Below, piece by piece: positions 40,037 to 63,805 of a DNA stretch of 64,000 nt. A program made the translations under genes and the position numbers. The stretch spans positions 522,642 through 586,641 of the forward strand of contig NZ_CP011280.1 of the NCBI RefSeq assembly GCF_000973085.1, in the 5' to 3' direction. Under the pieces are notes generated by a model. It saw only the letters and a program-made list of their open reading frames with translations, did not search any database and was not told where the DNA came from. Position 1 is the first letter of the stretch, and the number at the start of each line of letters is the position of its first letter. This DNA comes from Sneathia vaginalis (GTDB lineage Bacteria; Fusobacteriota; Fusobacteriia; Fusobacteriales; Leptotrichiaceae).

Positions 40037-40049
40037 AGGAGAGTAGAAA

Positions 40050-41087: not shown

Positions 41088-41098
41088 TGTGAACTAAT

Positions 41099-41530: not shown

Positions 41531-41532
41531 TT

Positions 41533-41898: not shown

Positions 41899-41919
41899 TT
41901 TTAAAAGGGAGGTGTTAAT

Positions 41920-42393: not shown

Positions 42394-42407
42394 AATAAGG
42401 TGAAAAT

Positions 42408-43166: not shown

Positions 43167-43174
43167 TAGAAAAT

Positions 43175-44092: not shown

Positions 44093-44096
44093 GTAG

Positions 44097-44779: not shown

Positions 44780-44799
44780 AAAGGGGGTATACATAATAT

Positions 44800-47700: not shown

Positions 47701-49899
47701 GATGAAGTCTTAAACAAGATACAACAAGCAATAATAGAAAGTGCTAAAAACTTAGATACTAAAGAGTATTCAGAAGCACAAAAGCTATTAAGTTCTAAAG
47801 GCGAAGAGTTCAACAAGATAGCTAAAGAAATTAGTGAAACAGGTTCTAAACAATTAAAAGCATTATTAGAATTAGTTAAGAATTTATTTGACTTAAAAGA
47901 AGTTAGAAAAGCTAAAAATTCATTAACAACATCAGAAAAAGCATTGAAAGGGCTTGATGTTGTAGGACAAACAATAAAATCTATATCAAGTTCTATGAAT
48001 GGTAAAGGTAATGAACTGCTTAATGGTGTATCTAAGATGATTGATACTGCAATATCTATATTCAATAACGTGCAAAAGGCAATGCAAGCTAAATCAAGTG
48101 GTGATATGTTTGGAATGTTTGGTTCAATAGGTGGAATAATAGGTTCAGTAGTCGGAGTTATAGGTGGAATATTTGGTTCTATATTTGGTGACAATGGTAC
48201 AACACGTGTTAACGAAGAGAAGAGAAAAGCAATAGATAAGTATAATGAAGACATTATCAAGACTAACAACAACTTAAGAAGTTCTATGGACAACCTAACG
48301 CAAGAAATGAAAACATTCGGTAAGACTTTAATTCAATCATTGTCTAAGAATACATCGAACGAAAACTTAAAATTAAGCCAAGATATAGTATCAGAATTAG
48401 TTAGAACCTATGCTAATAGCTTTAACCCTAACGTAAGCACTACAATATCAAGAGAGAAGTTAACCACTTCATGGTGGGGATTATCTAGTCACAGGGAATA
48501 TTTAGGTACGGAAACTGAACAAAGAAGACTAAGAGAGATATTACATATACCAGAATTTGATAATGCAAGTGATATAATGCGTTGGTACAGAAATAATAGA
48601 AATTCATCATATAGTGGTAATTTCTATGATCCATCAGGTACTAGAACAGGATTATTTGGTTTATTTGGTGGAGATAGTTTTTCACACAGTCTGGTAGGTA
48701 CTAATTTTAATCAAGTTTTAAATATGCTACCTGCATTCGCTAATTCAGTTAATGCATTGCAAAAATTATCGGCTAACATTAAATCTTATGGAGTGCTAGA
48801 AAGCTTTGAAGGTGTATCTGTCACTACTGCAGAAGATAAAAAAGACCAACTAAGAACAATGTTTAGGAAGTTAGCAGAAGCAAGTGGGCAAAATTATCTT
48901 GAAATGGCAGACAAGATAGAACGTAAGCTAGATGAACTAATAAAAACAGATGATGTAATAGTAACTGCGTTTGATGATGTTAGAAATGGGATAACAACAC
49001 AACTAGCCCAAGGTAATAATATAATAGATGGCTTAGCTACTGCATTGCAAGGATACTTCAACAAGATTAGAAACAACATAGCTAAAGTTAAGTATGACCT
49101 AGAATTCAGAGACATGCAAGGCTTTGAATCTAACTTTATTGAAAAATTTAGAAAAGTGTCAGAAGAATTGAAAAAGATAAGACTTGAAAATGGTAAGACA
49201 TTGAAAGACTTAAATCCTAAGGTTCTGGACTTTAGAGACCAATTCAGGCAATTAAACAGAATAAGCAAAGTGTCTACAGATATGCAGAATATCATCAAGG
49301 AATTAAGAAGACAAGCAAAAGAAGAAGGATTGTCAGAAGAGGTAATAGACAAGATATTGCCTTTAGGTAAAATTGCAGATAAGGTTAAGAGTATATCGGA
49401 AATGATTAAAAATGCATTAACAGTAGCAATAGATACTAATTCCTTTGACCAATTCAGTATGAGCCTAGGAGATAGCTTATACAAGAGTGTCAAAGAATCT
49501 ATAATAAAAGCCTTTGTTGAAACTACAAAATTCCAAGAATTGTATAAAAGGTATATGGACACAGAAGAGTATGACAAAGAGATACAAAAAGCTAAAACTA
49601 TGCGTGACGCATATAACAGCATTCAAAAGCAACTAAAGAAAGCAGAATTAATGCTTAAGGCAGAAGGATTAGGATTCAGAGAAACCAATGCTAGTAATGG
49701 TGAATATCTAGGTGGATTAACTGCTAGACAATCACTACCTGCAACAAGCAAGCTTTTAAGTGGTAGTGTTGGAGAGATAAGCACAACAGTTAATATATAT
49801 AACAACGGTTACTTATCAACTGACAGTAACAAGTTCATAGATGATATGACTGACCAAATAATTAAAAAGATTGATGAAAGAAAGAAAAAAGAAGTGTAG
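44800..49899 (+). CDS. Tape measure protein
   Basis: At 1699 residues, the largest gene in the window. It sets tail length by spanning the tube during assembly. Residues 1-80 are coiled coil, about 95-290 is the TMP core (AVKGFLALEVTRRVIEIGKA, then YTSDIGSIFKGLGGISEES), about 710-740 is a Gly/Ser/Lys-rich linker (GRGSTGGGGHGKSSSGKGGG), followed by long helices, and about 1100-1130 is a Gly-rich hydrophobic stretch (GMFGSIGGIIGSVVGVIGG) able to enter membranes. A GGGGG SD is 12 bases upstream. Using about 1.5 angstrom per residue, the known rule for such proteins, the tail would be near 0.25 micrometre. Confidence 0.95.
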   Translation: MADKNFGVEFRTMFKGGGSTQFKKALADIEKQLKEVESQNKQFAESLVDIDKKMLKVISTNEKLASNMQKVKPPKEATSGVEGLKQSFDNLSNAVKGFLALEVTRRVIEIGKACLKASSDMTELQNVTDQVFGDMSKEVQQFSEDMGNAMGRSTYALQKYTSDIGSIFKGLGGISEESTKKMSEDLAALAVDIGSFKNIADDRVFTAITAGIVGETEPLKRLGIVINENVMAEYALTKGIKENWESLNQATKAQLRYQKIMESTSFMQGDAARTINTYANQLKVFQANTQELSKAIGDKLVKSSNGCLGAINDLTEGLTRFFSKKSSADFVNEAIGELNDVKSLLYEYKALSESQVKNTKDRQRMHAIVEQLKATYPQEMANVNALTTNYYELSSAIDKVTNSIEKKMETAEQDYFNTQRLNKQKDTIKELEKSAKLVSGALDEITKEINTRVPELKVKFNADDFLKEIKNGTVHSLEDYIRNKFPKEAERALKQLDGGLFGGNRKSVRDINFSVITSELLTQSEILKRFNGNLKEIDSNQKLVSANSKSMYNSLSKSLNFSNEIAQQNNRKIIEESRRAEIDRAQKSGQLVTTIHDAKNKTIDVVVGNDIGLSSKETLEILKNRGFIEMFIKGVKTTFKQLNDGRIEQSTSNASNKLGYKVDSHGRYVRDEQKKIISEKDFLNELKNNLKKETPKPPVGTKGYGRGSTGGGGHGKSSSGKGGGSGKAKGKEKEKDKWEQMLDNLEKSLKDLSTPLNTKITPKIKEVAEQLRKKQDELTEWLVSVSEIKGFEATKEKIKHLEDQLKVAVELKDSNNVEKIRAEINKLKVENVLPELFGSINKELEEKIRQAQGMNMKADTKDIETTRNNIEKYKAEKMKLYKSQLENGNLSQSEYIDKQLELHKEIIEIYKKYTDKAGEIKEFIEQKQLEVQQVTDNIQQGVFIANIENAINNGSTEQLRDGIVKVYDEVLNKIQQAIIESAKNLDTKEYSEAQKLLSSKGEEFNKIAKEISETGSKQLKALLELVKNLFDLKEVRKAKNSLTTSEKALKGLDVVGQTIKSISSSMNGKGNELLNGVSKMIDTAISIFNNVQKAMQAKSSGDMFGMFGSIGGIIGSVVGVIGGIFGSIFGDNGTTRVNEEKRKAIDKYNEDIIKTNNNLRSSMDNLTQEMKTFGKTLIQSLSKNTSNENLKLSQDIVSELVRTYANSFNPNVSTTISREKLTTSWWGLSSHREYLGTETEQRRLREILHIPEFDNASDIMRWYRNNRNSSYSGNFYDPSGTRTGLFGLFGGDSFSHSLVGTNFNQVLNMLPAFANSVNALQKLSANIKSYGVLESFEGVSVTTAEDKKDQLRTMFRKLAEASGQNYLEMADKIERKLDELIKTDDVIVTAFDDVRNGITTQLAQGNNIIDGLATALQGYFNKIRNNIAKVKYDLEFRDMQGFESNFIEKFRKVSEELKKIRLENGKTLKDLNPKVLDFRDQFRQLNRISKVSTDMQNIIKELRRQAKEEGLSEEVIDKILPLGKIADKVKSISEMIKNALTVAIDTNSFDQFSMSLGDSLYKSVKESIIKAFVETTKFQELYKRYMDTEEYDKEIQKAKTMRDAYNSIQKQLKKAELMLKAEGLGFRETNASNGEYLGGLTARQSLPATSKLLSGSVGEISTTVNIYNNGYLSTDSNKFIDDMTDQIIKKIDERKKKEV

Positions 49900-49931
49900 A
49901 TAGCAGTATTAGATGTTATCTACATTTTTTT
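49895..49931 (+). terminator. Terminator after the tape measure gene
   Basis: TGTAGATA (49895-49902) and TATCTACA (49917-49924) form an 8-bp stem, then seven T. It shows that the open frame from 49913 does not start there. Confidence 0.8.
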
Positions 49932-49960
49932 ACATTTTATATGAAAGGGGGTCATTAGAA

Positions 49961-52642
49961 TTGATAAAAGTAAATGAAGAATATATGCAACTTACTAAAG
50001 ATGAATACAACAATTATCAACATAAGTATAAGATTATTAACTTAACACGTAATAAGATGAACCTAGAACCATTGCTAATAAGCGAAAGTTTGAGAGTTAA
50101 TAGGTTCTTAAGAACTGCAAGAGGAACATTGACACCAAACAATGTTAAGCTACAATTCGAGGGTAAACAAGGTAATCAACAAGACTTTTTAGTTAAGGAT
50201 TTCTTAAATAGATATAAGGACTTTCCAAACATGAGATGGAAAGACATAATAACAGTTGAATTTATAGAAGAATATTTAATAAAAAATCAGGATATTATAG
50301 AAATAATTGATATATTCAATGGAAAAGAAATTACAATATTTAAAGGTCAAGTAAGAGAAGTAACTAGAATAGATACAGATAACAGAAGAACAATAGATAT
50401 AACTATAGAAGATAATACTATAAAAGGTTACGAAAATACATTTTCAGAGGAAAAAGTGTATGAAAACCATTATATATCTAACAACAACGAAAAAGATAGG
50501 TCAATATTGCACATTCTATCAAAAATGATAGGATTCATTGATGATGAATTGCATATAGCAGATGTTAAATTCAAAAATGGTGAATATATCACAATTCCAT
50601 TAATTAAATGTGAAAAAGGTAAAAAGATAATGGAAGAGATTGCAGAGATAGTAAGAGCAATATATGGTAATATATACACACTTCCTAATGGTGAACTTAG
50701 AATAACAAGTGACCTTGATAAGTCTTACATAGAAGATACTAAGATAACAATAGGAAGTAAAGATGGCAATTATCCTGTATTAAGTTTTATTGAAAACACG
50801 GAAATACAACCAAAAGAAAACAAGGTTGAAGTTAAGTATAACAATGTTGTTAAACATGAAAGACAAGCAGTATTCGTGCTTAGTGGTCAAAATGCAGTTG
50901 TAAGTGAAGATGACGCAAAAGTTAAAATTCCTAAGAATAGTGAAGGTAAAGAATGGTGGAAGATTGAACTTAATAATGTAGTCAACATTGAAAGAACACC
51001 ACAAATAGTAGCATACAAAATTGAAAAAATTACTGTTGTAAAAGAATTACCACCCAAACCAAAACCACCAAAAACTGAGAAAAACAAAGTCAAGGAATAC
51101 GTCAAAACACATACATTAGGTGAATTATCACGCAACGAGGAATTACTTGATTATATGTATAATCACAAGAAAGTTTTAAAACCTGCAACACCAGGAAGAG
51201 GTGGCAGTCCTAAAGATACAATAACAGGAGAGTTTATATTCCTTGAAGCTAATCCTAAGTGTTTTATAGCAGATGGTAATAGATATAGAGATGGAACGGA
51301 AATTATAAAGGGATTAGGTAACATAGGTGATTTAGGTAAAAAGTTCGCACTATTTAAGAGTTGTAGAAAAGTATGTAAATCACTAAGAGTTGACCATGAC
51401 GAAGATGATTATATATACTACTTTGATTTAGGAGAAGATGAAATTGTAAACAATGAAGATACAGGAGTGTTAGAGCCACAATTTGAGACTAAGGAAGAAT
51501 ATATAACTAAGGAAGTGGAATATACTGATTATGAATTGTTATGGGAAGATAACGGATTAAATGCTAAGCTAAGATTTAATAATAGGAATGACTATGATAT
51601 ATTCATTAAAGAATTTAAGATATATGGTAACCCTATTACTAATTTTAAGGATAATTCAATATTATATACCGAAATAAAAGGAATAAAAGACTATAACCTT
51701 AAACAAGTAACGAACAAATACATCAATAGCAAAGAATTAGCAACAGAAATAGCTAAGCACACATACTATAATGAGTGCAGAACATATTCAAGAGTTAAGT
51801 TACAAACTAATAATATGCCATTCTTATCACTTGAAGATATAGTACACCTTGATTATAACAAATATAAGGGAGATTATCAGATAATAGCTATCACACAAAC
51901 TGAAAGCTATACAGAATTACTATTGAAGTTATACAGAGAATATCAAGCATACGCAGAGAACTTTATAACAGAGATTATAGCTAAAAACAATAAAGACTTA
52001 CTAGAATCTAAAGTTAATATAACTAAAGAAGAGAAAGAGAAAATATCAGAAAATGATAAGGCTATAAAAGAATTAAAAACAATAATAGAGGATTTAAAAG
52101 CTAGCACTAATACTAAACTTGATAAGATAGCCGAACAGATGAGTGCATTTACAAGTTTTTTAGAAGAGTATAAGAAGATAGAACCTAAACTTAACAAGAT
52201 TGTAGCAAACTTTAAAGAAGTTGACTATATGACTAAGAATGAAGTATTAACAGCACTGCAAAATGTTACAAACAAGAAAGAATTTGATACATTATTTAAT
52301 TCAAAGAGAATTAAAAGAATGATAGTTAATAATCAAGACTTAATGCTTGCGGTATCAAAAAATAACAATATATTAAATGTTATGTACGATAACTATAAAA
52401 AGATAAATAGTGGTGCAAGACAAAGTGTAAGTGGTGGTAAGTATATCATATTAGAAGTATCATCTAACAATGCTTACAGTAGTAGTTATGGAGAAACAAG
52501 AAGAAACGGTTCAACTTTAAGTGATTGGGGTAATTACAAAGGCAAATTCCAGTATTTCAAGAATTATCCAAACTATGTAGATTACATAAGAAACGATACA
52601 GAAAGTGATGACTGGGTATATTATTATGATTTTGAGATTTAA
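49961..52642 (+). CDS. Tail hub / minor structural protein
   Basis: An 893-residue protein just after the tape measure, in the place of a distal-tail or tail-associated lysin hub. The front half is beta-rich (TRNKMNLEPLLISESLRVNR, FNGKEITIFKGQVREVTRID, ILHILSKMIGFIDDELHIAD); residues about 660-740 resemble a hub C-terminus (YSRVKLQTNNMPFLSLEDIV); then comes a coiled coil (about 700-790) and a C-terminal carbohydrate-binding-like end (YIILEVSSNNAYSSSYGETR). TTG 49961 is chosen by AAAGGGGG 9 bases upstream and the terminator before it. Confidence 0.75.
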   Translation: MIKVNEEYMQLTKDEYNNYQHKYKIINLTRNKMNLEPLLISESLRVNRFLRTARGTLTPNNVKLQFEGKQGNQQDFLVKDFLNRYKDFPNMRWKDIITVEFIEEYLIKNQDIIEIIDIFNGKEITIFKGQVREVTRIDTDNRRTIDITIEDNTIKGYENTFSEEKVYENHYISNNNEKDRSILHILSKMIGFIDDELHIADVKFKNGEYITIPLIKCEKGKKIMEEIAEIVRAIYGNIYTLPNGELRITSDLDKSYIEDTKITIGSKDGNYPVLSFIENTEIQPKENKVEVKYNNVVKHERQAVFVLSGQNAVVSEDDAKVKIPKNSEGKEWWKIELNNVVNIERTPQIVAYKIEKITVVKELPPKPKPPKTEKNKVKEYVKTHTLGELSRNEELLDYMYNHKKVLKPATPGRGGSPKDTITGEFIFLEANPKCFIADGNRYRDGTEIIKGLGNIGDLGKKFALFKSCRKVCKSLRVDHDEDDYIYYFDLGEDEIVNNEDTGVLEPQFETKEEYITKEVEYTDYELLWEDNGLNAKLRFNNRNDYDIFIKEFKIYGNPITNFKDNSILYTEIKGIKDYNLKQVTNKYINSKELATEIAKHTYYNECRTYSRVKLQTNNMPFLSLEDIVHLDYNKYKGDYQIIAITQTESYTELLLKLYREYQAYAENFITEIIAKNNKDLLESKVNITKEEKEKISENDKAIKELKTIIEDLKASTNTKLDKIAEQMSAFTSFLEEYKKIEPKLNKIVANFKEVDYMTKNEVLTALQNVTNKKEFDTLFNSKRIKRMIVNNQDLMLAVSKNNNILNVMYDNYKKINSGARQSVSGGKYIILEVSSNNAYSSSYGETRRNGSTLSDWGNYKGKFQYFKNYPNYVDYIRNDTESDDWVYYYDFEI

Positions 52643-52652
52643 GGAGGTATAA

Positions 52653-54722
52653 ATGGAAGAAAATAGACATATATTCAACAACTTGACACAAGTAGAGAAG
52701 ATAAAACCTAAAATTGATAATCCGATAATTGTTGAAGATGTAACATACAATTTTAGTGACTTGATAGAAAATGAATGGATTTCACACTTCCCACAATATT
52801 CTCACAGAATGCGTAGCACATTCGTTAAGGGTGCAGGGATTGTAGATGAACACCTAGCTAATATCAATCAATGCTTGATACAGTTAGAAGATGAATTATA
52901 TAGGGTGTATGACAAACTTAGTGATGATAAGAAAGCAGAAGTAACAGAGTTCATAGAAGCTAGACAAAATGAAGTTAATGAGTTCATACAAGCAAGAAAA
53001 GACGAGGTAGCAACCTTTATTAGTGACAGAAAAACAGAAGTTGCAGACTTTATAAAAGATAGAAAAAACGAAGTTGCAACATTCATAAGTAACAAGCAAC
53101 ACCTTGTTGATGAGTTCGTGCAAGCTAGGCAGAATGAAGTAGCAAACTTTATCCAAAGTAAAACTAACGAAGTATCAAACTATATTAGTCAAAAAGAAGA
53201 ACAAATAACAAGGTTCATAGGAAATAAGGATAATGAAATAAATAAAAGAACTGAAACTTTAGATGATTATACCAAGAACCTAGAAGGTAAGATTGACCAA
53301 TTCAATCTAGTTATACAAGGTGGAGAAGCAACAGAAGACAAGCTAGGACTTATAAGGTTAAGTACAATAAGTGAACAAGTGCAAGTAGCAACAGTTGAGA
53401 ACTTAAAACAAGCACTAATAACACCTAACTTCAAAGATACAACACCAGTAAAATGGAGTGTTAACATTACAGTAAAATATTGTGGAAAAGAAAAGAAAAT
53501 AGTAGCAGATAACCTAGATAAAAATAAATTAGATTATGTGTTTAATAGTTCTAATTATTCTGAATTTGCAAATTATCACCCACAAACTGAAACAATAAAA
53601 AGAGCAGATGAAGAAGTAAAAAATGTAGATAAAGTCATATACTTAAAACTAAAGCAAGTGACTGTAAGATGGCATGTAACAAGTGAAGATGGCAAAATAA
53701 ACAAAACAATAGAAGAAGTAGTACCTACACAAAATAGTCCATTTCAATATAAGTTTGACCCAACAAAATTTACAGAATTAGCAAAATATGAATTGGCAGG
53801 TGGTCTTGATTATGTAAGTATAGATGAAAATAGTGAGAAAAGCGAGAATAACATATACTTAAGGTTGAGAACAGAACACCCAGAACTACACCCAAGCCCA
53901 CAGGATATACCAACACCACCTGTACCAGAACCAGAGCCAGAGCCTGACCCTGAAAATCCATCGGGGGGGGGTATGAGTTCTACGGATAAACCAAAAGAAA
54001 AAACTTTAAAAGAAAAACTACTAGACGAAATTAAAGATGGAATAATAAAATCTTTACCTTTAAATTACAAAGGAAGAAAGTATTCTGTGGGAATACTGGA
54101 AAGTGTCGAATTTCAAAATTTAAATACTGATGATAATATAATAGGTGCTAAATTGAAATTTGTCGGAGATAAAAAAAGTAATATAACTTTATTAAAAAAT
54201 AATGGTAGTAAAATTGCTTATTTAGATGTAGAAGTTCGTGATGATAGAAAAAGATTTGAACTTAATTTTAACACATATAGCACAGCATATGAAACAACAT
54301 TTTTATTAGCTAAAGTTTCTGAATGGTCAAGTATAAATTTATTATTTAATTCGATAGATTGGTGGAAAAAAACTGATGAATTTGCTAGAGTGAAATATCC
54401 TGTTATAGAAAAGATGGAAGATAGAATAATATCAGCGTTTAGCAACCAAGACATTGGAATCAATACTGAATATGGAAAAGTATTGTGTGAATGGTTCTGG
54501 AATTTAGTCGATACAATTGGAGCACGAGGGAAATTTGAAAATTATGGAAATGAAAAAGGAGAATTAAAAGATTTCTTTGATAAAATGGGTGCGTTAATTC
54601 GGAGATTTTCAGATGATTTAGTTGATTTTCCAATATTAAAGTATGTTTCACTTCGCTTATTGCCGTTCCATATATATGAAGAGATAAAAGAACCAGACAC
54701 AGATGACGATGATAGACCATAA
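52653..54722 (+). CDS. Tail fibre with undecad coiled coil and phase-variable G9 tract
   Basis: A 689-residue receptor-binding-type protein. Residues about 88-215 hold roughly eleven 11-residue repeats of the form E-V-x-x-F-I-x-x-(R/K)-(K/Q)-(N/D) (for example EVATFISDRKTEVADFIKDR), a right-handed coiled coil stalk. Beta-rich modules follow (about 265-420), then a Pro/Glu linker (PVPEPEPEPDPENPS), a run of nine G at 53963-53971, and a 250-residue tip of different style (VGILESVEFQNLNTDDNIIG). At G9 the frame is open; loss or gain of one G would remove the tip. The tip probably binds the host surface. Confidence 0.85.
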   Translation: MEENRHIFNNLTQVEKIKPKIDNPIIVEDVTYNFSDLIENEWISHFPQYSHRMRSTFVKGAGIVDEHLANINQCLIQLEDELYRVYDKLSDDKKAEVTEFIEARQNEVNEFIQARKDEVATFISDRKTEVADFIKDRKNEVATFISNKQHLVDEFVQARQNEVANFIQSKTNEVSNYISQKEEQITRFIGNKDNEINKRTETLDDYTKNLEGKIDQFNLVIQGGEATEDKLGLIRLSTISEQVQVATVENLKQALITPNFKDTTPVKWSVNITVKYCGKEKKIVADNLDKNKLDYVFNSSNYSEFANYHPQTETIKRADEEVKNVDKVIYLKLKQVTVRWHVTSEDGKINKTIEEVVPTQNSPFQYKFDPTKFTELAKYELAGGLDYVSIDENSEKSENNIYLRLRTEHPELHPSPQDIPTPPVPEPEPEPDPENPSGGGMSSTDKPKEKTLKEKLLDEIKDGIIKSLPLNYKGRKYSVGILESVEFQNLNTDDNIIGAKLKFVGDKKSNITLLKNNGSKIAYLDVEVRDDRKRFELNFNTYSTAYETTFLLAKVSEWSSINLLFNSIDWWKKTDEFARVKYPVIEKMEDRIISAFSNQDIGINTEYGKVLCEWFWNLVDTIGARGKFENYGNEKGELKDFFDKMGALIRRFSDDLVDFPILKYVSLRLLPFHIYEEIKEPDTDDDDRP
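53963..53971 (+). repeat. Poly-G tract (G9) within the fibre gene
   Basis: Nine G in a row, coding S-G-G-G with the flanking bases, in a genome where such runs are very rare. Slipped-strand changes of one base would switch off the C-terminal 250 residues. Confidence 0.9.
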
Positions 54723-54751
54723 AAATATTATAAAGAAAAGGAGAAAAGAAC

Positions 54752-55039
54752 ATGAGTAAAAAGATAGAATTAGGCTTACTAGCCAAGAGCATAAAGGCAA
54801 TACTAGGGCAAGACAAGAATATTAAGATTTTAAATGGGAAGGATAGCATAAGCATAAAAAGAGATGATATATTAGTGTATGACGATGGAAACCAGTTCTA
54901 CTTTTATAAAGTAATAAGAGATGGTAGCACATCACTCCCAACATCGTATTACTGCGAAAAATTAATATTAGGAGAAGGTGGCTTAAAGTGGGAAGAATTT
55001 AAAAAAAAAATGCAGAAAATTACGAACCTCCTATCATAG
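54752..55039 (+). CDS. Front part of an A10-split tail-region gene
   Basis: A 95-residue frame (KIELGLLAKSIKAILGQDKN, then DDGNQFYFYKVIRDGSTSLP), stopping soon after a run of ten A at 55001-55010. If the ribosome slips -1 there, or RNA polymerase adds one A, reading goes on through the next open frame, giving a single 282-residue protein. It follows the fibre gene; no family was recognised. AAAGGAG lies upstream. Confidence 0.7.
   Translation: MSKKIELGLLAKSIKAILGQDKNIKILNGKDSISIKRDDILVYDDGNQFYFYKVIRDGSTSLPTSYYCEKLILGEGGLKWEEFKKKMQKITNLLS
55001..55010 (+). repeat. Poly-A tract (A10), frameshift site
   Basis: TTT AAA AAA AAA A in the first frame. A -1 shift here joins the frames at 54752 and 55132 without a stop. 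Confidence 0.8.
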
Positions 55040-55596
55040 TTAGTGATACCTTTGATTATATATTATTAAGAATTAATCATGCTACAGTATACGAAAATAA
55101 AATAGAGTTTAAATTCTGCAACGGTAAGGTAGTGACATTTATGACTGACCAAACAGAAGATATTGATTTATTCAGTGGAACAAGGGAAGTAAGAAAATGC
55201 ACCGTGAATAATGACGGTAGTGAAAATGAATGTAGAGTAGAAAATGAAATAAGCCGATGGTCTTATGAATTTGAGGAGCTTTTAAATGCAAGCAACAGTA
55301 GTGCTTATACACATTCAAATTCTCCTGTTGGAAGACTTTTTAAGTGGGGTGGTGGATATACATTATATCAAATATACATTTTATTTAGGGATAAATATTA
55401 TGGCGAATTCCAAAACCCTAGACCATTTATAGAACTACACAGTAAATGTAGATATCTAACAAGTAATGAAGTCACACTCCATACTTATGCAGATAATTGT
55501 GGGTTTAGTTCAACATATATTCCTAATTATATGCCTTTTCCAAAAGGGTTAGTCAATAAGGACAAAGTTTTAGAAGAAATACTAAAAAGAGATTAG
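55012..55596 (+). CDS. Rear part of the A10-split tail-region gene
   Basis: In the -1 frame the DNA is open from 55003 to the TAG at 55594. Directly after the A run it reads AENYEPPIIVSDTFDYILLR, then GKVVTFMTDQTEDIDLFSG; the C-terminal part has GRLFKWGGGYTLYQIYILFR. The first start codon in frame is GTG 55132, but conserved-looking coding continues upstream to the A run, so it is a continuation and not a separate gene. Function unknown; position suggests a tail or receptor accessory protein. Confidence 0.7.
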   Translation, partial: AENYEPPIIVSDTFDYILLRINHATVYENKIEFKFCNGKVVTFMTDQTEDIDLFSGTREVRKCTVNNDGSENECRVENEISRWSYEFEELLNASNSSAYTHSNSPVGRLFKWGGGYTLYQIYILFRDKYYGEFQNPRPFIELHSKCRYLTSNEVTLHTYADNCGFSSTYIPNYMPFPKGLVNKDKVLEEILKRD

Positions 55597-55634
55597 AAAT
55601 AAGTATTAATAATTAAAGAAAGGAGAGAACACAC

Positions 55635-56333
55635 ATGAAATATGTATATAGAAAAGACAAATTGCTAAGTTCAGTGTATGATGAAGTGCCAGACGATGTT
55701 ATAATCAATTCATATTCAAATGAAAAAGACAAAACACCTGTAGTAATAACTAATGTACACTATGATAATCCTGTTGTAGATAAAGACACAGGACAATTAA
55801 GAGAGAAAACAAAGCTAGAATTGTATAATGATGGATTGTACAAGCTAGGATATAATGAATTATTTAAAGATGGAGAAATAAAGACAGTAGATTTAGACCC
55901 TTACCACGTTATAGAAAATAACCAAATTGTATTTAAGAAAACTGAACTTTTGAATAAAATTGAAAATGAAATTCACAGAAAAGAGCAGATGGAGAAAGAG
56001 AAAGAGTTTGAATTTAAGGGATATATGCAACCTAACAGAGAATTACAAGACCAAACAAGCTTGCTTAAGGTTATATCATTACTTAATGCAACACAACAAA
56101 CGGAGTTTAAGGATTGGAAGATGTATGATGATAAAGGCAAAGAACATTATGTAACACTAACAATTCAAGAGATGATGAAGTTAGCATATATAATGCAACA
56201 ACAAACTACAAGAGCAATGAGAATAGCAAGCAAGCTAAGAGAAAAGGTTGAAAATATAACAGACGAAAAAGAATTAATGGAATTTAATGTAGAAAAGGAA
56301 TGGGCAAGCAACAATGAAGATAACAAAAATTAA
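55635..56333 (+). CDS. DUF4376-type tail-region protein
   Basis: A 232-residue protein with the layout of phage DUF4376 proteins: a front part with PVVITNVHYDNPVVDKDTGQ, a repeated basic helix (about 105-130), and a C-terminal helical domain (EFKDWKMYDDKGKEHYVTLT, then TTRAMRIASKLREKVENI). Such proteins lie after fibre genes and may aid their assembly. AAAGGAGAG lies upstream; the next gene overlaps its end by 20 bp. Confidence 0.75.
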   Translation: MKYVYRKDKLLSSVYDEVPDDVIINSYSNEKDKTPVVITNVHYDNPVVDKDTGQLREKTKLELYNDGLYKLGYNELFKDGEIKTVDLDPYHVIENNQIVFKKTELLNKIENEIHRKEQMEKEKEFEFKGYMQPNRELQDQTSLLKVISLLNATQQTEFKDWKMYDDKGKEHYVTLTIQEMMKLAYIMQQQTTRAMRIASKLREKVENITDEKELMEFNVEKEWASNNEDNKN

Positions 56334-56781
56334 AATTGTATTCTACAAAAGTAATTATAGGTGGTGGAGTAGACTTATTAAATGGTGGACTAATTCTAAT
56401 TACTCACATTGCGAATTGTATGTGAACGATAGATACTTACTAGGTATATCAGATGAACAACAAGTGAGAATTAAAAGATATGATTTATCCCCTGAAAAAT
56501 GGGATAGTATAGACTTAAAAATTGATGATAGGCTAGAATGGATAGTTAATGACTTCTTTGAACAGACACAAGGTGCAAAATACGATTGGAAAGCTATAAT
56601 TCTATCTAATATCTTCAATAGAAGAAAGCAAGATAAAACAAAATACACTTGTAGTGAATGGATAAGTGAATTGTTAGACTTGAGGTATAACATTTTTCAA
56701 CCAAAACGATATTATATGCTAACACCACAAGATGTTTATGATGTGTTTAAGAAAATGACTTCACAGAATAAGCGAGGTTGA
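56314..56781 (+). CDS. Permuted papain-fold (YiiX/NlpC-like) protein
   Basis: A 155-residue protein. It has SNYSHCELYVNDRYLLGISD with a His (near 30), GAKYDWKAIILSNIF near 90, and the Cys in KYTCSEWISELL (near 110). This order, His before Cys, is typical of permuted papain-like amidases. It may cleave cell-wall peptides or host lipids; in phages, the family often lies between the tail and lysis genes. Confidence 0.78.
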   Translation: MKITKIKIVFYKSNYRWWSRLIKWWTNSNYSHCELYVNDRYLLGISDEQQVRIKRYDLSPEKWDSIDLKIDDRLEWIVNDFFEQTQGAKYDWKAIILSNIFNRRKQDKTKYTCSEWISELLDLRYNIFQPKRYYMLTPQDVYDVFKKMTSQNKRG

Positions 56782-56788
56782 AAGTTTC

Positions 56789-56820
56789 AAGGTATAGGCG
56801 ATAGTTTATACCTTTTTTTA
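56789..56820 (+). terminator. Terminator before the lysis genes
   Basis: AAGGTATA (56789-56796) and TATACCTT (56807-56814) form an 8-bp stem followed by TTTTTA. Confidence 0.85.
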
Positions 56821-56850
56821 TTAAAAATTAATTATACGTTAATTTTACAC

Positions 56851-56924
56851 TAATCGTGCGTTAATCGTGCTAAATATATTTTAGAACTCAATAAATAAAA
56901 GGATTAATCGTGCATTAATCGTGT
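56851..56924. repeat. Two pairs of TTAATCGTGC repeats before endolysin
   Basis: TAATCGTGC at 56851-56859, 56862-56870 and 56905-56913, and TAATCGTGT at 56916-56924. Within each pair the copies are 11 bp apart; the pairs are 54 bp apart, so all lie on one helix face. CG is rare here, which makes the motif stand out. It may be a regulator site for lysis genes. Confidence 0.7.
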
Positions 56925-56947
56925 GAAAACAAAAAAAGGAGGTAATA

Positions 56948-57523
56948 ATGGACTGGATAATCGAAATAAATGGCAAGAAGTACAAATTAGTACCACTTGA
57001 TAACAAGAAAGACCCTTTTGATAACATTTTTAATTATATTTTAATGGTTGAGGGTAGATATTCTAACAACCCAAATGATAGAGGTGGAGCTACTAAATAT
57101 GGAATAACCGAAAATGTAGCTAATGCATATTATGGATATAAGGTAGCAAGTCTAACTAAAGAACAAGCTAAAGAAATATATTATAAAGAATTTTACCTTA
57201 AGAATAAGCTAGATAAAGTAGCAAGTGATAAGGTAGCATTATCAATATTCGACTGGCTAGTTAATAGTGGTGTGTGGGCAATCAAGAAAGCCCAACTAAC
57301 ATTATGCAATTTAGGATATAAGGTCGATATAGATGGAATTATAGGTAGAGATACACTTAATAGCTTAAATTCAGTTAATGTTAATGATTTTTTAAATGAA
57401 TATCATAGGATTCAAAAATTATTCTATGAAGCAATAGTATACAACAACCCAAGTCAAAAGGTATTTTTGCAAGGTTGGATTAATAGATTAAATAACAAAA
57501 TTAAATATATAAAGGAGATGTAG
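56948..57523 (+). CDS. Endolysin, glycoside hydrolase family 108
   Basis: A 191-residue N-acetylmuramidase. Residues 25-110 carry the GH108 domain: FNYILMVEGRYSNNPNDRGG with the catalytic Glu (near 37; the usual EGGY is EGRY) and TKYGITENVANAYYG; residues 110-185 are the linked peptidoglycan-binding domain (VNSGVWAIKKAQLTLCNLGY, then DGIIGRDTLNSLNSV). It lacks a signal peptide, so it needs the holin encoded 4 bp later. AAAGGAGG lies upstream. Confidence 0.92.
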   Translation: MDWIIEINGKKYKLVPLDNKKDPFDNIFNYILMVEGRYSNNPNDRGGATKYGITENVANAYYGYKVASLTKEQAKEIYYKEFYLKNKLDKVASDKVALSIFDWLVNSGVWAIKKAQLTLCNLGYKVDIDGIIGRDTLNSLNSVNVNDFLNEYHRIQKLFYEAIVYNNPSQKVFLQGWINRLNNKIKYIKEM

Positions 57524-57527
57524 TATT

Positions 57528-57857
57528 ATGAACAAGGGAACAGTATTTGGAATTATTTTTACAGTTTTAGGAGCAATATTTGGAGCATTACTACCTAAGT
57601 TAAGGGAATTAGTTAAAAAAACACCAACTGAGTTAGATGATGTAGCATTAGAAGTCGTGGTGTTTGTTGAAAAACTACTTAATGGAGATAGTGGAGAGTC
57701 TAAAAACCAAAGAGCCAAAGATTTAATTGAGGCTAAACTAGGACAAACAGTTAAAGAAAAAGTCTTAGACAAGGCAGTTGAGAAAGCAGTAACAACTATG
57801 AAGGTAGCAGAAGCACAAAAGAAGTCATTAGATGAAGTTGGTAAGAAGGGGGAGTAG
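57528..57857 (+). CDS. Holin of the LL-H type
   Basis: A 109-residue protein with one N-terminal transmembrane helix (GTVFGIIFTVLGAIFGALLP) followed by a charged helical tail, matching the LLH-family phage holins in layout. It follows the endolysin by 4 bp, in the reverse of the more common order. A terminator overlaps its end. Confidence 0.75.
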   Translation: MNKGTVFGIIFTVLGAIFGALLPKLRELVKKTPTELDDVALEVVVFVEKLLNGDSGESKNQRAKDLIEAKLGQTVKEKVLDKAVEKAVTTMKVAEAQKKSLDEVGKKGE

Positions 57858-57869
57858 TTACCCCTTTTT
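57846..57869 (+). terminator. Terminator of the late operon
   Basis: AAGGGG (57846-57851) and CCCCTT (57861-57866) pair, then TTTA. The holin stop codon lies in the loop. Confidence 0.75.
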
Positions 57870-58009
57870 ATTCTAATGAGTTAATCAAGAATATTCAAAG
57901 GGATTATTCAAAGACAATGATGTATGGTGACTTAGGTATAACTAACACAGGATTTAAAGTTGAAAATACATCAATTAGTGCAAGACTAGGATTTAGCAAA
58001 TATTTTTAA
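57869..58009 (+). pseudogene. Possible remnant of a beta-barrel outer-membrane protein
   Basis: An open frame of 46 codons without SD, ending at TAA 58007. It reads MMYGDLGITNTGFKVENTSI, then SARLGFSKYF as the last ten residues. The alternating pattern and final Phe fit the last strand of a Gram-negative outer-membrane barrel such as an autotransporter. The front of such a gene is missing, so this could be a piece of host DNA picked up by the phage. Assignment is tentative. Confidence 0.4.
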
Positions 58010-58017
58010 AAAAATTT

Positions 58018-58045
58018 TTGACAAATTATAAAAGTATGCTATAAT
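58018..58045 (+). promoter_or_regulatory. Strong promoter of the Cas12a-repeat RNA
   Basis: Perfect TTGACA (58018-58023), 16-bp spacer, and perfect extended -10 TGCTATAAT (58037-58045). It is among the best promoters in the window. Start near 58052, with no SD or reading frame before the terminator. Confidence 0.88.
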
Positions 58046-58051
58046 TATAGT

Positions 58052-58124
58052 GTAAAAGATAAGAAGACCTCATTTTTTATAATTTCTACTATTGTAGATA
58101 CGCTTTCAGGTCTTATATTTTTTT
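58052..58124 (+). ncRNA. Phage small RNA with a single Cas12a crRNA repeat (RNA anti-CRISPR candidate)
   Basis: About 70 nt long. AATTTCTACTATTGTAGAT (58081-58099) has the conserved type V-A repeat handle: TCTAC and GTAGA pair (58085-58089 with 58094-58098) around a TATT loop, as in Francisella and Acidaminococcus repeats, which differ at one loop base. AAGACCT (58064-58070) and AGGTCTT (58108-58114) flank it and pair, and TATTTTTTT follows, so the repeat sits within a terminator-like hairpin. There is no second repeat, and the 15 bases after the handle run into the closing stem, so they are poorly placed to act as a spacer. Phages are known to encode solitary repeat RNAs that trap Cas proteins; a decoy for host Cas12a is the most likely role. 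A mini-guide is the alternative. Confidence 0.85.
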
Positions 58125-58139
58125 AAAAACTATCTTTTG

Positions 58140-58168
58140 GTTAATCCTTAGGGATTAACTTTTTTTTA
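58140..58168 (+). terminator. Second terminator after the small RNA
   Basis: GTTAATCC (58140-58147) and GGATTAAC (58152-58159) form an 8-bp stem followed by eight T. It insulates the small RNA gene from the next gene. Confidence 0.85.
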
Positions 58169-58198
58169 TACTCAAAAAAAAGGAAAGGAGAACACAGA

Positions 58199-58765
58199 TT
58201 GACACCAGAAGCAACAATTACAATCATAGAAAATAAAGGCATAGCAGTTGTTATATGTGGATTAGTGATATTCCTAGCATATAAGTATTTTGCTGGTGTT
58301 TTGGAAAATAGTAATGAAACAAACAAAGAAATATTAGAAACATTAAATAAAATAAACAACTTCTTAGTTAATGGATATTGTAGAGATGAAGATTTAAACC
58401 TATTAATCAAATTAAGGGGTAGGTATGTAATTTTGGAATACAAATGGATAATAGTTAAATATGTTTTGAACAATCATATTAAACAAAATCTTGAAAAAAT
58501 TAAGTTGGAACTTAAGAATTATGCAGACAGTTCAAGTAATAGAACCTTGGAATTATTAAGCAAAAAAGCAAGTTATCAAGAGATAAAAAAAGAAGTCGAA
58601 AGGATTAATGGCATTTTAGATGAAATTAACGAAATTATATTTCCTATTTTTGAGGATATGGCAAAACAATCTTTAACATTTGATGAAAAATTAGATATAA
58701 TAAGAACAATAGAAATACATTTTGATAAGATAGAAAGTTTATTTTTATCAAAATTAGCAATATAA
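58199..58765 (+). CDS. Single-pass membrane protein with coiled coil
   Basis: A 188-residue protein with an N-terminal transmembrane helix (GIAVVICGLVIFLAYKYFAG), then a long helical part (about 40-185). It resembles phage membrane proteins of the XhlA/BhlA type near lysis genes, but is longer. It might be a second holin-like or an exclusion protein. TTG start, with AAAGGAG upstream. Confidence 0.6.
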   Translation: MTPEATITIIENKGIAVVICGLVIFLAYKYFAGVLENSNETNKEILETLNKINNFLVNGYCRDEDLNLLIKLRGRYVILEYKWIIVKYVLNNHIKQNLEKIKLELKNYADSSSNRTLELLSKKASYQEIKKEVERINGILDEINEIIFPIFEDMAKQSLTFDEKLDIIRTIEIHFDKIESLFLSKLAI

Positions 58766-58769
58766 TAAA

Positions 58770-58812
58770 AGCACTCGATACTTTCTTTAAGTAAAGAGTG
58801 CTACTTTTTTTA
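58770..58812. terminator. Bidirectional terminator between converging genes
   Basis: AGCACTC (58770-58776) and GAGTGCT (58796-58802) pair, with TTTTTTT after it on the right. It separates the rightward membrane protein gene and the leftward RHH gene. Confidence 0.8.
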
Positions 58813-58816
58813 TTTA

Positions 58817-59008
58817 TTATATTTTCTTTTCCATTTCTTTAATTCCTGCTAGTAAGATTTCTCTGTTCTTAACCCCTAAATTGTTTCTAATATCTTCTAT
58901 TAATTTTAATTCATTAGCCGTAACCCTAATAGTTATTGACTTAGATAGCTTTTCATCTGGACTTAAATTCTTCCAAATATCCCAAGTCCTTTTACTTCCT
59001 TTTTTCAT
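58817..59008 (-). CDS. Ribbon-helix-helix regulator
   Basis: A 63-residue DNA-binding protein: SKSITIRVTANELKLIEDIR is the strand and first helix of a MetJ/Arc-type ribbon-helix-helix, followed by NNLGVKNREILLAGI. AGGAGG precedes the ATG. It is in the leftward gene set beside attR and near the Cas12a-repeat RNA. Small regulators often control anti-CRISPR units; such a link here is only a possibility. Confidence 0.78.
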   Translation of the reverse strand: MKKGSKRTWDIWKNLSPDEKLSKSITIRVTANELKLIEDIRNNLGVKNREILLAGIKEMEKKI

Positions 59009-59078
59009 TCTTCACCTCCTAATTCATTTATTTCTTTGTGATAAAATAAAAAACGAGCTTAAAGGTGAATCAATGCTC

Positions 59079-59110
59079 AGCCTATAGATTTTACTCTATA
59101 GGCTTTTTTA
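59079..59110. terminator. Terminator between RHH gene and acidic protein gene
   Basis: AGCCTATAGA (59079-59088) and TCTATAGGCT (59095-59104) form a 10-bp stem, with TTTTTA on the right; on the leftward strand the T run is weaker. Confidence 0.8.
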
Positions 59111-59129
59111 TTTTATCTTAATCTTATAA

Positions 59130-59639
59130 TTATAATGCCTTAATATATTCTTCATTGATTTTATCTTTATATACCTTATATATATCATAGCAGTCAACTA
59201 AATCTTCTAATCTATCAGAACTTATATAAGTTGTATAATCATCAATTTTAATATATTTATCACCTAGGTCACACATATCTAAGTCACAATCTGATTTATC
59301 AATTGAACGATACCATAATGGTTCTAATTCTTTAATACTTAGCTTATCTAAGTCATACATATAGTTTTCATCTATTTCACATTCCTTATAAATATCTTGT
59401 ACTGTATCTTCATCCAAGTCATCTTGCAATAATTTAATTTCAGTAGTTAGAAAGTATTTATATTCTTTACCTTTTGTTGTAATTATATAAAACATACAAT
59501 CAAAATCAAAATCGTCATGTAAGTCCATTTCGCCTAGTTTAAGATTTTGTATGTATTGTTTTACAAATCTTAAATAGTTTTCGTCTTTTTCATCTTTCAA
59601 ATAATCTAAATCCTTTAATTCTTCTTTAGTGTATTTCAT
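59130..59639 (-). CDS. Highly acidic small protein next to attR
   Basis: A 169-residue protein rich in Asp and Glu (DYLKDEKDENYLRFVKQYIQ, then DLDEDTVQDIYKECEIDENY), soluble, with no family that I know. DNA-mimic and protein-blocking phage inhibitors are often like this, so it is one candidate for a protein inhibitor of host defence; this is speculation from charge and place. It follows the DUF4116 gene by 17 bp with AGGAGG before the ATG, so both share a promoter. Confidence 0.7.
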   Translation of the reverse strand: MKYTKEELKDLDYLKDEKDENYLRFVKQYIQNLKLGEMDLHDDFDFDCMFYIITTKGKEYKYFLTTEIKLLQDDLDEDTVQDIYKECEIDENYMYDLDKLSIKELEPLWYRSIDKSDCDLDMCDLGDKYIKIDDYTTYISSDRLEDLVDCYDIYKVYKDKINEEYIKAL

Positions 59640-59656
59640 GTGTTTTCCTCCTAATT

Positions 59657-60568
59657 TTATTTATTCAAAACTTTTTTCAATCTATCACTGACATAATTTA
59701 AAGCAAAATCGTTTATCTTCATTGCTTGTAACATAAATTCTTCATTGTCACATAATTTAGAACTTGCATATTGCATTAATAATACATCATGTTTTATCGC
59801 TTCTAGTAGAATGTCTTTGTCACTTTTCATTTGACGGTTTGCATATCTTAATACTAACGGATTGCTTTTAATCGCTTTTAAAACAAATTCTTTATTGTTA
59901 TATAATCTTTCACTAACATATCTTAATGCAAATTCATTTTCGCTTACTGCTTTTAAAGCTATTTCTTCATCATCTTGCAAATCTTTACTAGCATAATTCA
60001 ATGCACCCCCACAATGTTTTATAGCTTTTGAAACTACATCTTTATCATTTTGAAGTTTCTTGTTCAAGTATTCTAGTGCATTACCATTTGTTTTAACTAA
60101 TTCTAAAGCAAAATCTTTATTATCTTTTAATCTATTACTAACATATGTTAGTTGCCAAACATTCTTTTTAGTTGCTAATAAGACTACATCTTTGTCATCT
60201 TTCAATCTATCACTTGCTTCACTTATAATATTATAATTTTCAATTGCTAATAGAACAAAATCTTTGTCATCTTTTAATTCATCACTTGCATACTCAAGGA
60301 CATTATCAATAACTTTAAGTGTTTTCAACATGAAGTCTTTATTACTACGTAATCTTTTACTTGCGTATTTTAGTGCGTCTTCGTAATTTTCCGCTTCTAA
60401 TATAACTTCTTCATCATCTCTTAATCTTTCGCTTACATATTCTAAATTGCTTCCATCAATTTCAACTGCTCTTAGTACAACCTCTTTATCATCTCTTAAT
60501 TTGTCACTTACATATTTTAGACTTAGTCCATCATTTTCAATTTCTTTTAATACTTGTTTTTTAGTCAT
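59657..60568 (-). CDS. DUF4116 repeat protein
   Basis: A 303-residue protein made of about twelve repeats of near 24 residues, pattern (D/N)KDxVLxAIxxxxxxLxYxSxxL, for example LRDDKEVVLRAVEIDGSNLE and LKDDKDFVLLAIENY. DUF4116 repeats form helical arrays and occur in many bacterial and phage genes with no fixed job. ATG 60568 is chosen since GAGGAGG lies just upstream; the frame is open from 60610, inside the promoter. It heads the leftward attR cassette. Confidence 0.85.
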   Translation of the reverse strand: MTKKQVLKEIENDGLSLKYVSDKLRDDKEVVLRAVEIDGSNLEYVSERLRDDEEVILEAENYEDALKYASKRLRSNKDFMLKTLKVIDNVLEYASDELKDDKDFVLLAIENYNIISEASDRLKDDKDVVLLATKKNVWQLTYVSNRLKDNKDFALELVKTNGNALEYLNKKLQNDKDVVSKAIKHCGGALNYASKDLQDDEEIALKAVSENEFALRYVSERLYNNKEFVLKAIKSNPLVLRYANRQMKSDKDILLEAIKHDVLLMQYASSKLCDNEEFMLQAMKINDFALNYVSDRLKKVLNK

Positions 60569-60598
60569 ATATTTTTCCTCCTCATCTTTTATAATCAT

Positions 60599-60627
60599 AT
60601 GATACAACATAAATTATAAAATGTCAA
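60599..60627 (-). promoter_or_regulatory. Promoter of the leftward attR cassette
   Basis: Read leftward: TTGACA (60627-60622), 17-bp spacer, TATCAT (60604-60599). No operator-like palindrome overlaps it, so it may be active in the lysogen. Confidence 0.7.
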
Positions 60628-60693
60628 GCGTTTTTATGAAAATATTTTATTTTATTTTTTTAGCCTTGATTTTACTAGGTTAGAAGACTTAAA

Positions 60694-60752
60694 AAAGTTC
60701 TATTAAAGTTCTATAAAATCAAAGAACTGCTAAAAAGTTCTAAAAAGTTCTA
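60694..60752. repeat. Right integrase arm-site repeats
   Basis: AAAGTTCTA at 60694-60702, 60705-60713, 60734-60742 and 60744-60752, with an inverted AGAACT at 60723. The same 9-mer lies twice beside attL. The clustering on both flanks fits arm-type integrase sites. The remaining gap to attR (60753-60813) is AT-rich with nothing else seen. Confidence 0.7.
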
Positions 60753-60813
60753 AAATAAACAAAAAGAAAAACCAATAAATATCAGTATTTAAAAATATAT
60801 GTTAAATTAATCT

Positions 60814-60826
60814 ATTAATAAATGAA
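60814..60826 (+). other. attR core
   Basis: ATTAATAAATGAA, same as attL. Directly after it the cas12a frame reads V-N-Q-K-Y-K-S-K-L, which continues E250 of the front fragment. Confidence 0.88.
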
Positions 60827-63805
60827 GTAAATCAAAAATATAAATCTAAACTGAATGTATTCAATTCTTTATACAAGCAAATTTTGACTGAAGAAGATAC
60901 AAAATCATTTGTTGATGAAATATTATTAACACCTGAATCTGTAATAAAAACAATTGATAATTTTATAGATAGTATTATTATGAATGATATTGAAGGATTA
61001 AAAGAAGAATTCTTAAAAATTAGTTTAGAAAATTTTGAAGGTATATATATATCAAACAAGAAATTAAACGAGATTAGTAATAGAAAATTTGGGGATTATA
61101 ATTCAATTAATATGATGATTAAACAGTCTATGAATGAAAAAGGTATATTAAGTAAGAAAGAAATTAATGAATTAATTCCAGATTTAGAAAATATAAACAA
61201 ACCAAAAGTTAAAAGTTTTAATTTAAGCTTTATTTTTGAAAATTTAACAAAAGAACATAAAGAACTTATTATAGATTACATAAGAGAAAATATATGTAAT
61301 GTCATAGAAAATGTAAAAATAACTATAGAAAAATATAGAAATATTGATAATAAAATAGAATTTAAAAATAATGCAGAAAAAGTTTCTAAAATAAAAGAAA
61401 TGTTAGAATCAATAAATGAATTGTGTAAACTTATAAAAGAATTTAATACTGATGAAATTGAAAAAAATAATGAATTCTATAATATATTAAATAAAAATTT
61501 TGAAATTTTTGAAAGTTCATATAAAGTTTTAAATAAAGTAAGAAATTTTGTTACAAAAAAAGAAGTTATAGAAAACAAGATGAAATTAAATTTTTCTAAC
61601 TATCAACTTGGAAATGGATGGCATAAAAATAAAGAAAAAGATTGTAGTATTATTTTGTTTAGAAAGAGAAATAATGAGAGATGGATATATTATTTAGGTA
61701 TTTTAAAACATGGAACTAAAATAAAAGAAAATGACTATTTGTCAAGTGTAGATACAGGATTTTATAAAATGGATTATTATGCACAAAATTCATTAAGTAA
61801 AATGATACCTAAATGCAGTATTACCGTAAAAAATGTAAAAAATGCTCCAGAAGATGAAAGTGTTATTTTAAATGATAGCAAAAAATTCAATGAACCTTTA
61901 GAAATAACACCAGAAATAAGAAAGTTGTATGGAAATAATGAACATATAAAAGGAGATAAGTTTAAAAAAGAATCTTTAGTAAAATGGATAGATTTTTGTA
62001 AAGAATTTTTACTTAAATATAAATCATTTGAGAAGGCAAAGAAAGAAATTTTAAAGTTAAAAGAAAGTAATTTGTATGAAAATTTAGAGGAATTTTATTC
62101 TGATGCAGAGGAAAAAGCTTACTTTTTAGAATTTATAAATATAGATGAAGATAAAATAAAAAAACTTGTTAAAGAAAAAAATCTATATCTATTCCAAATA
62201 TATAATAAAGATTTTTCTGCGTACAGTACAGGGAATAAAAATTTACATACTATGTATTTTGAAGAATTATTTACAGATGAAAATTTAAAAAAACCAGTTT
62301 TTAAATTAAATGGAAATACGGAAGTCTTTTATAGAATAGCTTCATCTAAACCTAAAATAGTTCACAATAAAGGAGAAAAATTAGTAAATAAAACATATTT
62401 AGATGATGGCATAATAAAAACTATACCAGATAGTGTATATGAAGAAATTTCTGAAAAAGTAAAAAATAATGAAGATTATTCAAAATTACTAGAAGAAAAT
62501 AATATAAAAAATCTTGAAATAAAAGTAGCTACTCATGAAATAGTAAAGGATAAAAGATATTTTGAAAATAAATTTTTATTTTATCTACCAATAACTTTAA
62601 ATAAAAAAGTATCAAATAAAAATACTAATAAAAATATTAATAAAAATGTTATAGATGAAATAAAGGATTGTAATGAATATAATGTGATAGGTATAGATAG
62701 GGGTGAAAGAAATTTAATAAGTCTTTGTATAATAAATCAAAATGGAGAAATTATACTACAAAAAGAAATGAATATTATTCAGTCATCAGATAAATATAAT
62801 GTCGATTATAATGAAAAATTAGAAATAAAATCTAAAGAAAGAGATAATGCTAAGAAAAATTGGAGTGAAATTGGAAAAATAAAGGATTTGAAATCAGGGT
62901 ATTTATCAGCAGTAGTTCATGAAATAGTAAAGCTCGCTATTGAGTACAATGCCGTCATAATATTAGAAGATTTAAATAATGGCTTTAAAAATTCAAGAAA
63001 AAAAGTTGATAAACAAATATATCAAAAATTTGAAAGAGCTTTAATTGAAAAATTGCAATTCTTAATATTTAAAAATTATGATAAAAATGAAAAGGGAGGA
63101 CTTAGAAATGCATTTCAATTAACACCAGAATTGAAAAATATTACTAAAGTTGCATCTCAACAAGGTATAATAATTTATACTAATCCAGCATATACTTCTA
63201 AAATAGATCCTACTACAGGTTATGCGAATATTATAAAAAAATCAAATAATAACGAAGAATCTATAGTAAAAGCTATTGATAAAATATCTTATGATAAAGA
63301 AAAAGATATGTTCTATTTTGATATTAATTTATCAAATAGTAGTTTTAATTTGACAGTAAAAAATGTTTTAAAGAAAGAATGGAGAATATATACTAATGGT
63401 GAAAGAATAATATATAAAGATAGGAAATATATTACATTAAACATAACTCAAGAAATGAAAGATATTTTAAGTAAATGTGGTATTGATTATTTAAATATTG
63501 ATAATCTAAAACAAGATATATTAAAAAATAAACTACATAAAAAAGTTTATTATATATTTGAATTAGCAAATAAAATGAGAAATGAAAATAAAGATGTTGA
63601 TTATATTATATCTCCAGTATTAAATAAAGATGGAAAATTCTTTATGACACAAGAAATTAATGAGCTAACTCCGAAAGATGCCGATTTAAATGGTGCATAT
63701 AATATTGCACTAAAAGGTAAATTAATGATTGATAATTTAAACAAAAAAGAAAAATTTGTATTTTTAAGTAATGAAGATTGGTTAAACTTTATTCAAGGAA
63801 GATAA
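60827..63805 (+). pseudogene. cas12a: Rear fragment of cas12a, with intact RuvC and Nuc domains
   Basis: This piece supplies residues 251-1242 of the restored protein. NSLYKQILTEED matches the conserved LYKQILSD of Cas12a. The three RuvC residues are present: Asp874 in GIDRGERNL, Glu964 in LEDLNNGFK and Asp1203 in KDADLNGAYN; FQIYNKDFSAYS and the Nuc-domain segment NENKDVDYIISPV are also intact. In the lysogen the frame has no upstream ATG and no SD; TTG 60884 or internal ATG codons would be needed. The in-frame stop before it is TAA 60803. Nothing within the coding part suggests decay, so the disruption looks recent or reversible. Confidence 0.95.

Follow-up and report, generated by a model that had tools for sequence, protein, structure and literature searches.

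The question raised by this locus is why a prophage that has integrated into a cas12a gene should carry, as a stand-alone element, a single Cas12a crRNA handle. The 19-mer concerned, AATTTCTACTATTGTAGAT, is exactly the handle of the host type V-A array, and it is found once, with up to two mismatches allowed, in the window (the whole stretch of DNA that was analysed, 64 kb); the same scan returned one unrelated site at 7307, with three mismatches. Genome-wide (1,330,224 bp, one contig), the exact 19-mer occurs 15 times, as the prophage copy and the 14 array repeats, and all the remaining sites have at least three mismatches. By chance, the prophage would be expected to contain ~3e-6 exact occurrences, and the genome ~1e-4. 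An earlier note on this DNA had described an exact, conserved type V-A handle with no open frame, no second repeat and no cas gene beside it. The identity of the handle is confirmed, as are its single copy and the absence of an ORF of at least 60 aa covering it, and there is no second partial repeat within ~400 bp; the statement on cas genes is correct within ~2.8 kb, beyond which lie the 3' part of cas12a, further cas-like ORFs and the array. The comparison with the arrays of this strain and its relatives, which the note had recommended, gave the agreement with the strain's own repeats described above, while the handle was absent from the other 32 genomes of the family examined. Only 4 of the 16 positions 5' of the prophage handle are the same as in the host repeat, against 19/19 in the handle itself, which indicates a copy of the handle and not of the whole repeat.

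Table 1. Coordinates of the features discussed in the text, numbered from the first letter of the window.
Feature	Position	Strand	Details
cas12a 5' part (REC1 side), 253 aa	18951..19712	+	REC1 3.7e-29; Cas12a 9e-46
Prophage, 41,126 bp	19688..60826	.	att core ATTAATAAATGAA at 19688-19700 and 60814-60826; 13-bp core duplicated
Integrase	19778-20821		prophage gene
Promoter TTGACA-16 bp-TATAAT with TG extension (TGCTATAAT)	58018..58045	+	12/12 consensus bases
Predicted small RNA, ~73 nt, inferred start to end of first T run	58052..58124	+	from promoter and T run
Enclosing stem, 5' arm AAGACCT	58064..58070	+	perfect complement of 58108-58114; in MFE and centroid folds
Solitary type V-A repeat handle AATTTCTACTATTGTAGAT	58081..58099	+	exact; same as handle in 14/14 host repeats
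Guide-position sequence ACGCTTTCAGGTCTTATATTTTTTT	58100..58124	+	25 nt directly 3' of handle
Enclosing stem, 3' arm AGGTCTT, then ATATTTTTTT (58115-58124)	58108..58114	+	terminator-like, handle in loop
Second intrinsic terminator GGTTAATCC-TTAG-GGATTAACT, then T run	58139..58168	+	sole consensus terminator in 57500-58700
cas12a 3' part (REC2 to RuvC/Nuc)	60884..63805	+	RuvC_1 1.6e-78; Cas12a 9.9e-244

The promoter of the element, previously described as near-consensus, proves to be fully consensus with an extended -10, and it is the single perfect instance of TTGACA-N15..19-TATAAT in the window. The predicted RNA folds at -14.7 kcal/mol (z -3.2), a value equalled in none of 200 shuffles, and a longer transcript reaches a z of -3.7. 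The two 7-mers that had been proposed to pair around the handle are present and perfectly complementary. When the flanks are shuffled, a perfect stem this long or longer (7 bp, 3 GC) encloses the handle in 0.8% of cases, and 1.3% of prophage positions have one; the stem is thus probably real, though the figures fall short of being compelling. As ATATTTTTTT comes directly after it, we read this stem as an intrinsic terminator holding the handle in its loop, and with the canonical terminator further downstream the proposed pair of terminators is borne out. No Rfam family matched the element at the gathering score, and the sub-threshold matches were chance-like. The idea of a recurring design with the handle in a terminator loop was also considered and rejected, the 8 cases counted (array repeats included) standing against 4.6 +/- 1.9 in shuffles, which is not significant.

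The bases 3' of the handle had been described as tied up by this pairing. The predicted fold supports this for bases 9-15 and contradicts it for bases 1-8, the seed, which are unpaired; averaged over 20 nt, the pairing of the guide (0.53) scarcely differs from that of shuffles (0.50). The enclosing stem does not involve the seed, and a terminator is at least as good a reading of it. A guide locked by structure is not supported as a rule for type V-A solitary repeats either: in a survey of 67 distinct handles from IMG/VR together with the window, the 6 units with a terminator and without a long ORF had a mean pairing of 0.585, against 0.559 in shuffles. By eye, a hairpin occupies the guide position in many of the IMG/VR units. 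The first 20 nt of the guide-position sequence have no further match in the genome at up to three mismatches, and the guide preceded by a PAM has no match in the 2.9 million viral contigs of IMG/VR; it is therefore not a recognisable guide.

The prophage contains genes for an integrase, RecT, a portal protein and capsid-like and holin-like proteins. Its att core is part of cas12a, and the duplication of this core, together with the equal frame phase of cas12a on both sides of the prophage, indicates a clean insertion. The integration into a CRISPR effector gene is itself noteworthy, independently of the RNA. At the right end, a DUF4116 repeat protein with 8 repeats (59657-60610, minus strand) adjoins the att core as an accessory gene. 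The gene at 56948, which is taken from its sequence to encode an endolysin, has relatives throughout the family. Among the neighbours at 57528-60610, no named Acr family was matched in the libraries scanned, which may or may not include the known Acr families. The 160 bp that separate the holin from the RNA promoter contain an open stretch (57863-58009), ending in MYGDLGITNTGFKVENTSISARLGFSKYF before its stop, that resembles the C-terminus of an outer-membrane barrel protein; these 160 bp occur only once in the genome and are possibly the scar of a recombination that introduced the RNA element.

The host array (G000:C1:588446-589278) lies 7.7 kb downstream of the prophage handle on the same strand, and its 35-nt repeat consists, with small variants, of TTTGAAAGCATCTTTT followed by the handle. 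The cas-like ORFs between the 3' part of cas12a and the array are taken to be cas4, cas1 and cas2 from their order, size and sequence. Spacers 1, 2, 4, 5, 8 and 12 (6/13 distinct) agree with prophage sequence at 21-24 of 27 positions, a level reached in 0 of 200 shuffles for each of them, and T-rich PAM-like flanks (TTTTTG, GTTTTT, CGTTTC and AATTTA) accompany the matches of spacers 1, 2, 4 and 5. None of the matches to the prophage is perfect, and several mismatches are close to the PAM. Six imperfect matches beyond all shuffles indicate that the array targeted this phage lineage; most likely, the host acquired its spacers from relatives of the prophage, from which the prophage itself differs. 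An anti-CRISPR would be of advantage to a phage lineage under such attack by a type V-A system. Within the array, spacers 3 and 6 are the same (AGTTGTTTTCACATGTTGGTATATATA), and their unit is duplicated (G000:C1:588572-588590 and 588759-588777); the best match of this spacer in the prophage, at 29523 with the flank ACTTTC, covers 20 of 27 positions and is within the shuffle range. As regards the enzyme, the residues H800, K809 and K860 of AsCas12a, which we take to be those of crRNA processing, align in comparison with a solved Cas12a to H and K residues of the 3' part, in which the RuvC motifs are also readable. The preservation of these residues and motifs points to an enzyme that was probably active until the phage arrived, and an intact host Cas12a would probably be able to process the decoy RNA proposed below.

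We propose, with a probability of roughly 0.7, that the element is a phage-encoded RNA anti-CRISPR, that is, a decoy crRNA similar to the Racrs. The claim that it acts against the very Cas12a whose gene the phage interrupts is thus upheld as a candidate function, in view of the handle shared with the host, the position of the phage in cas12a, the spacers and the absence of a target for the guide in the searches made. Like a Racr, the element is a solitary repeat-like sequence on a mobile element, with no second repeat within 100 bp; it lies outside predicted genes, with a promoter ending 35 bp upstream (the distance sought being at most 250 bp), and its repeat type is that of the host CRISPR-Cas subtype, with the same handle in a V-A array served by Cas12a. 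It covers 19 nt of the 35-nt repeat, where the published finder, SRUFinder, scores a full match only from 41.1 bits upward and with 90% or more of a known repeat covered (PMC10651486); the comparison was made here against the host repeat alone, and the threshold serves detection and does not define function. The 19-nt match is probably below this threshold, so the element is likely to have been missed by the published search. In an array with its crRNAs, two or more repeats would be expected, as well as a protospacer for the spacer; here there is one repeat, and no protospacer was found in the searches described. The element is therefore filed as a probable Racr-type unit, and it most likely works like one.

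The mechanism that we infer can be outlined as follows. The strong promoter of the prophage would give a short RNA bearing the same handle as the host crRNAs. In a cell that has just been infected or induced, this handle would be bound by intact Cas12a, which would probably trim the RNA on its 5' side. The enzyme would then be occupied by an RNA whose partly paired guide matches nothing, leaving less Cas12a for the crRNAs whose spacers recognise the phage lineage. Transcription, binding, trimming, inhibition and timing are all predicted steps. Some observations argue against the decoy: a lysogen has its cas12a disrupted beforehand, so that the decoy would be redundant there; the element is a single instance, no homologous one having been found in a related phage; no known acr gene was recognised beside it in the libraries scanned; and the 3' handle alone has been copied, whereas the published candidates were detected through a match to at least 90% of the repeat. 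Because cas12a is split once the phage has integrated, the decoy would count chiefly while integration has yet to occur, once the phage has excised, or in other hosts. It may be needed despite the split gene, since the enzyme would be intact before integration and the gene whole again upon excision; alternatively, it may be redundant baggage or serve in other hosts. Only tentatively do we suggest a disarming in two steps, in which the decoy jams Cas12a on entry, the integrase then uses cas12a as the attachment site so that the enzyme is inactive throughout lysogeny, and excision restores the gene, whereupon the decoy is needed again; as a full sequence of events it is possible but doubtful.

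Among the other explanations, a regulator comparable to CreR, or another crRNA-like RNA, would with Cas12a repress a partly complementary promoter (that of cas12a, the array leader or a phage promoter) without cutting. According to PMC12737573 and PMC13131331, which relate the work of Liu et al. 2023, the type V-A CreR RNAs act with Cas12a by partial complementarity to the promoter of the cognate cas operon, and the unpaired guide bases 1-8 would suit such a role. However, the 77 kb covering the prophage, the cas locus and the array, with the cas12a promoter and the leader included, contain no TTTV followed by a seed match of at least 8 bases other than the element itself; the single 8-base seed site has the flank ATTA and is outside the locus, and an exact TTN with a 10-base seed occurs nowhere in the genome. 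The partial complementarity and PAM at the cognate cas promoter that characterise CreR are consequently lacking for ungapped seeds of at least 8 bases, and we consider this explanation unlikely. Of the same low probability is a non-functional relic of a mini-array once carried by the phage, or a host repeat captured by chance. The handle is indeed solitary, with the 3' half of the repeat alone remaining, and the upstream 160 bp resemble a truncated end of an open frame, which suggests that the site may have been rearranged. Yet a perfect handle stands between flanks that share nothing with the host repeat, and it is framed by a perfect promoter and terminators with no further partial repeat nearby.

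It is very improbable that the element is a Cas12a-sensing leader of the gene at 58199-58765, in which the binding or cutting of the RNA by Cas12a would remove the 5' arm of the terminator and allow transcription to go on. A terminator-like stem does enclose the handle in its loop, and the interval 58168-58199 leaves little room for a promoter, so that the nearest one upstream of the ORF is that at 58018; but the independent canonical terminator would still end transcription, transcripts of the late operon can cover the ORF, and among other handles the arrangement is no more frequent than chance allows. Least credible of all is an ordinary guide, a single-spacer crRNA with which the phage would turn the host Cas12a on a competing phage or plasmid, for although promoter, handle and 25 nt downstream are the minimum that a crRNA gene needs, this guide lacks a match in either search and runs into its own terminator.

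Both Cas12a and the combination of handle and promoter were found in this genome alone among the 96 Fusobacteriales genomes examined, so that the phage handle matches the subtype of an unusual host. No homologous element was found in a related phage, and this one is a single instance. The handle is absent from six phage records with a 68-69% identical terminase (L157-L162), and the stretches examined from five of these contain no homologue of the 58199 ORF. Searches by way of the neighbouring proteins, the portal and the integrase yielded no relative of the element, and a DNA search of phages and plasmids gave chance-level matches only. A pattern scan of genome contigs gave four loci, of which L163, L164 and L166 are ordinary CRISPR arrays. 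In IMG/VR, solitary V-A handles occur with 67 distinct flanks, several of them with a promoter and a terminator; some, lying inside long ORFs, may be due to chance. Such handles are not rare, and the kind is already known. In two further viral contigs, L012 (4705 and 4747, minus strand) and L085 (4628 and 4668), two V-A handles are 40-42 nt apart, which makes these mini-arrays with one short spacer and not solitary units.

If the decoy works, it would extend the RNA anti-CRISPRs to a form reduced to the handle, probably unlisted by searches that match repeats, and would provide an example from a bacterial order in which Cas12a is rare. The presence in one genome of the decoy RNA, of spacers against the phage lineage and of a destroyed effector gene makes the order of events in this arms race testable. 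For future searches of V-A Racrs, it suggests the 19-nt handle with promoter and terminator as the query in place of whole repeats.

It remains to situate the element among known systems. Phage-borne solitary repeat units function as RNA anti-CRISPRs, and 2,103 of them have been found in viral sequences (Camara-Wilpert et al. 2023, PMC10651486); acr genes often lie less than 1 kb from Racrs, a supporting feature and not a required one, and three V-A Racrs, RacrVA1-3, inhibit the M. bovoculi system (PMC10651486). The earlier note had assigned the element to this known class, which is right in that V-A Racrs do inhibit a Cas12a system and needs amending in that the known ones are near full-length repeats. 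With RacrVA1-3 and the other Racrs, the element shares a solitary repeat-like sequence on a prophage, its own promoter, no link to a phage array and agreement with the host subtype; it differs in having the 19-nt 3' handle alone, a terminator-like loop, a predicted activity and a phage lodged inside the gene of the target. With CreR, as those sources describe it, it has in common a crRNA-like RNA with a Cas12a handle, and differs in that no such promoter complementarity was found here. Closer in layout is the viral contig IMGVR_UViG_2847060657_000004 (L016), in which a promoter-like -10, a solitary handle and, around it, a 10-bp stem GCGGTTAAGT/ACTTAGCCGT with a T run are combined, but with an apparently whole repeat (GTCTAACGACCTTATTT and the handle) and on a separate viral contig, no relation being shown. 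At 7716 in L016, and also in L019, the handle in a terminator loop with T-rich sequence after the stem appears to be an independent occurrence of this layout. Varble and colleagues are said to have described in 2021 prophages of Streptococcus pyogenes that integrate into CRISPR arrays. In both cases a phage in the CRISPR locus would evade immunity, through the arrays in S. pyogenes and through the effector gene cas12a here; viral integration into CRISPR arrays is also mentioned in PMC10651486. As Racrs, those of type V-A included, are already published, it is the association of a decoy with integration into cas12a that constitutes the less usual part of this system.
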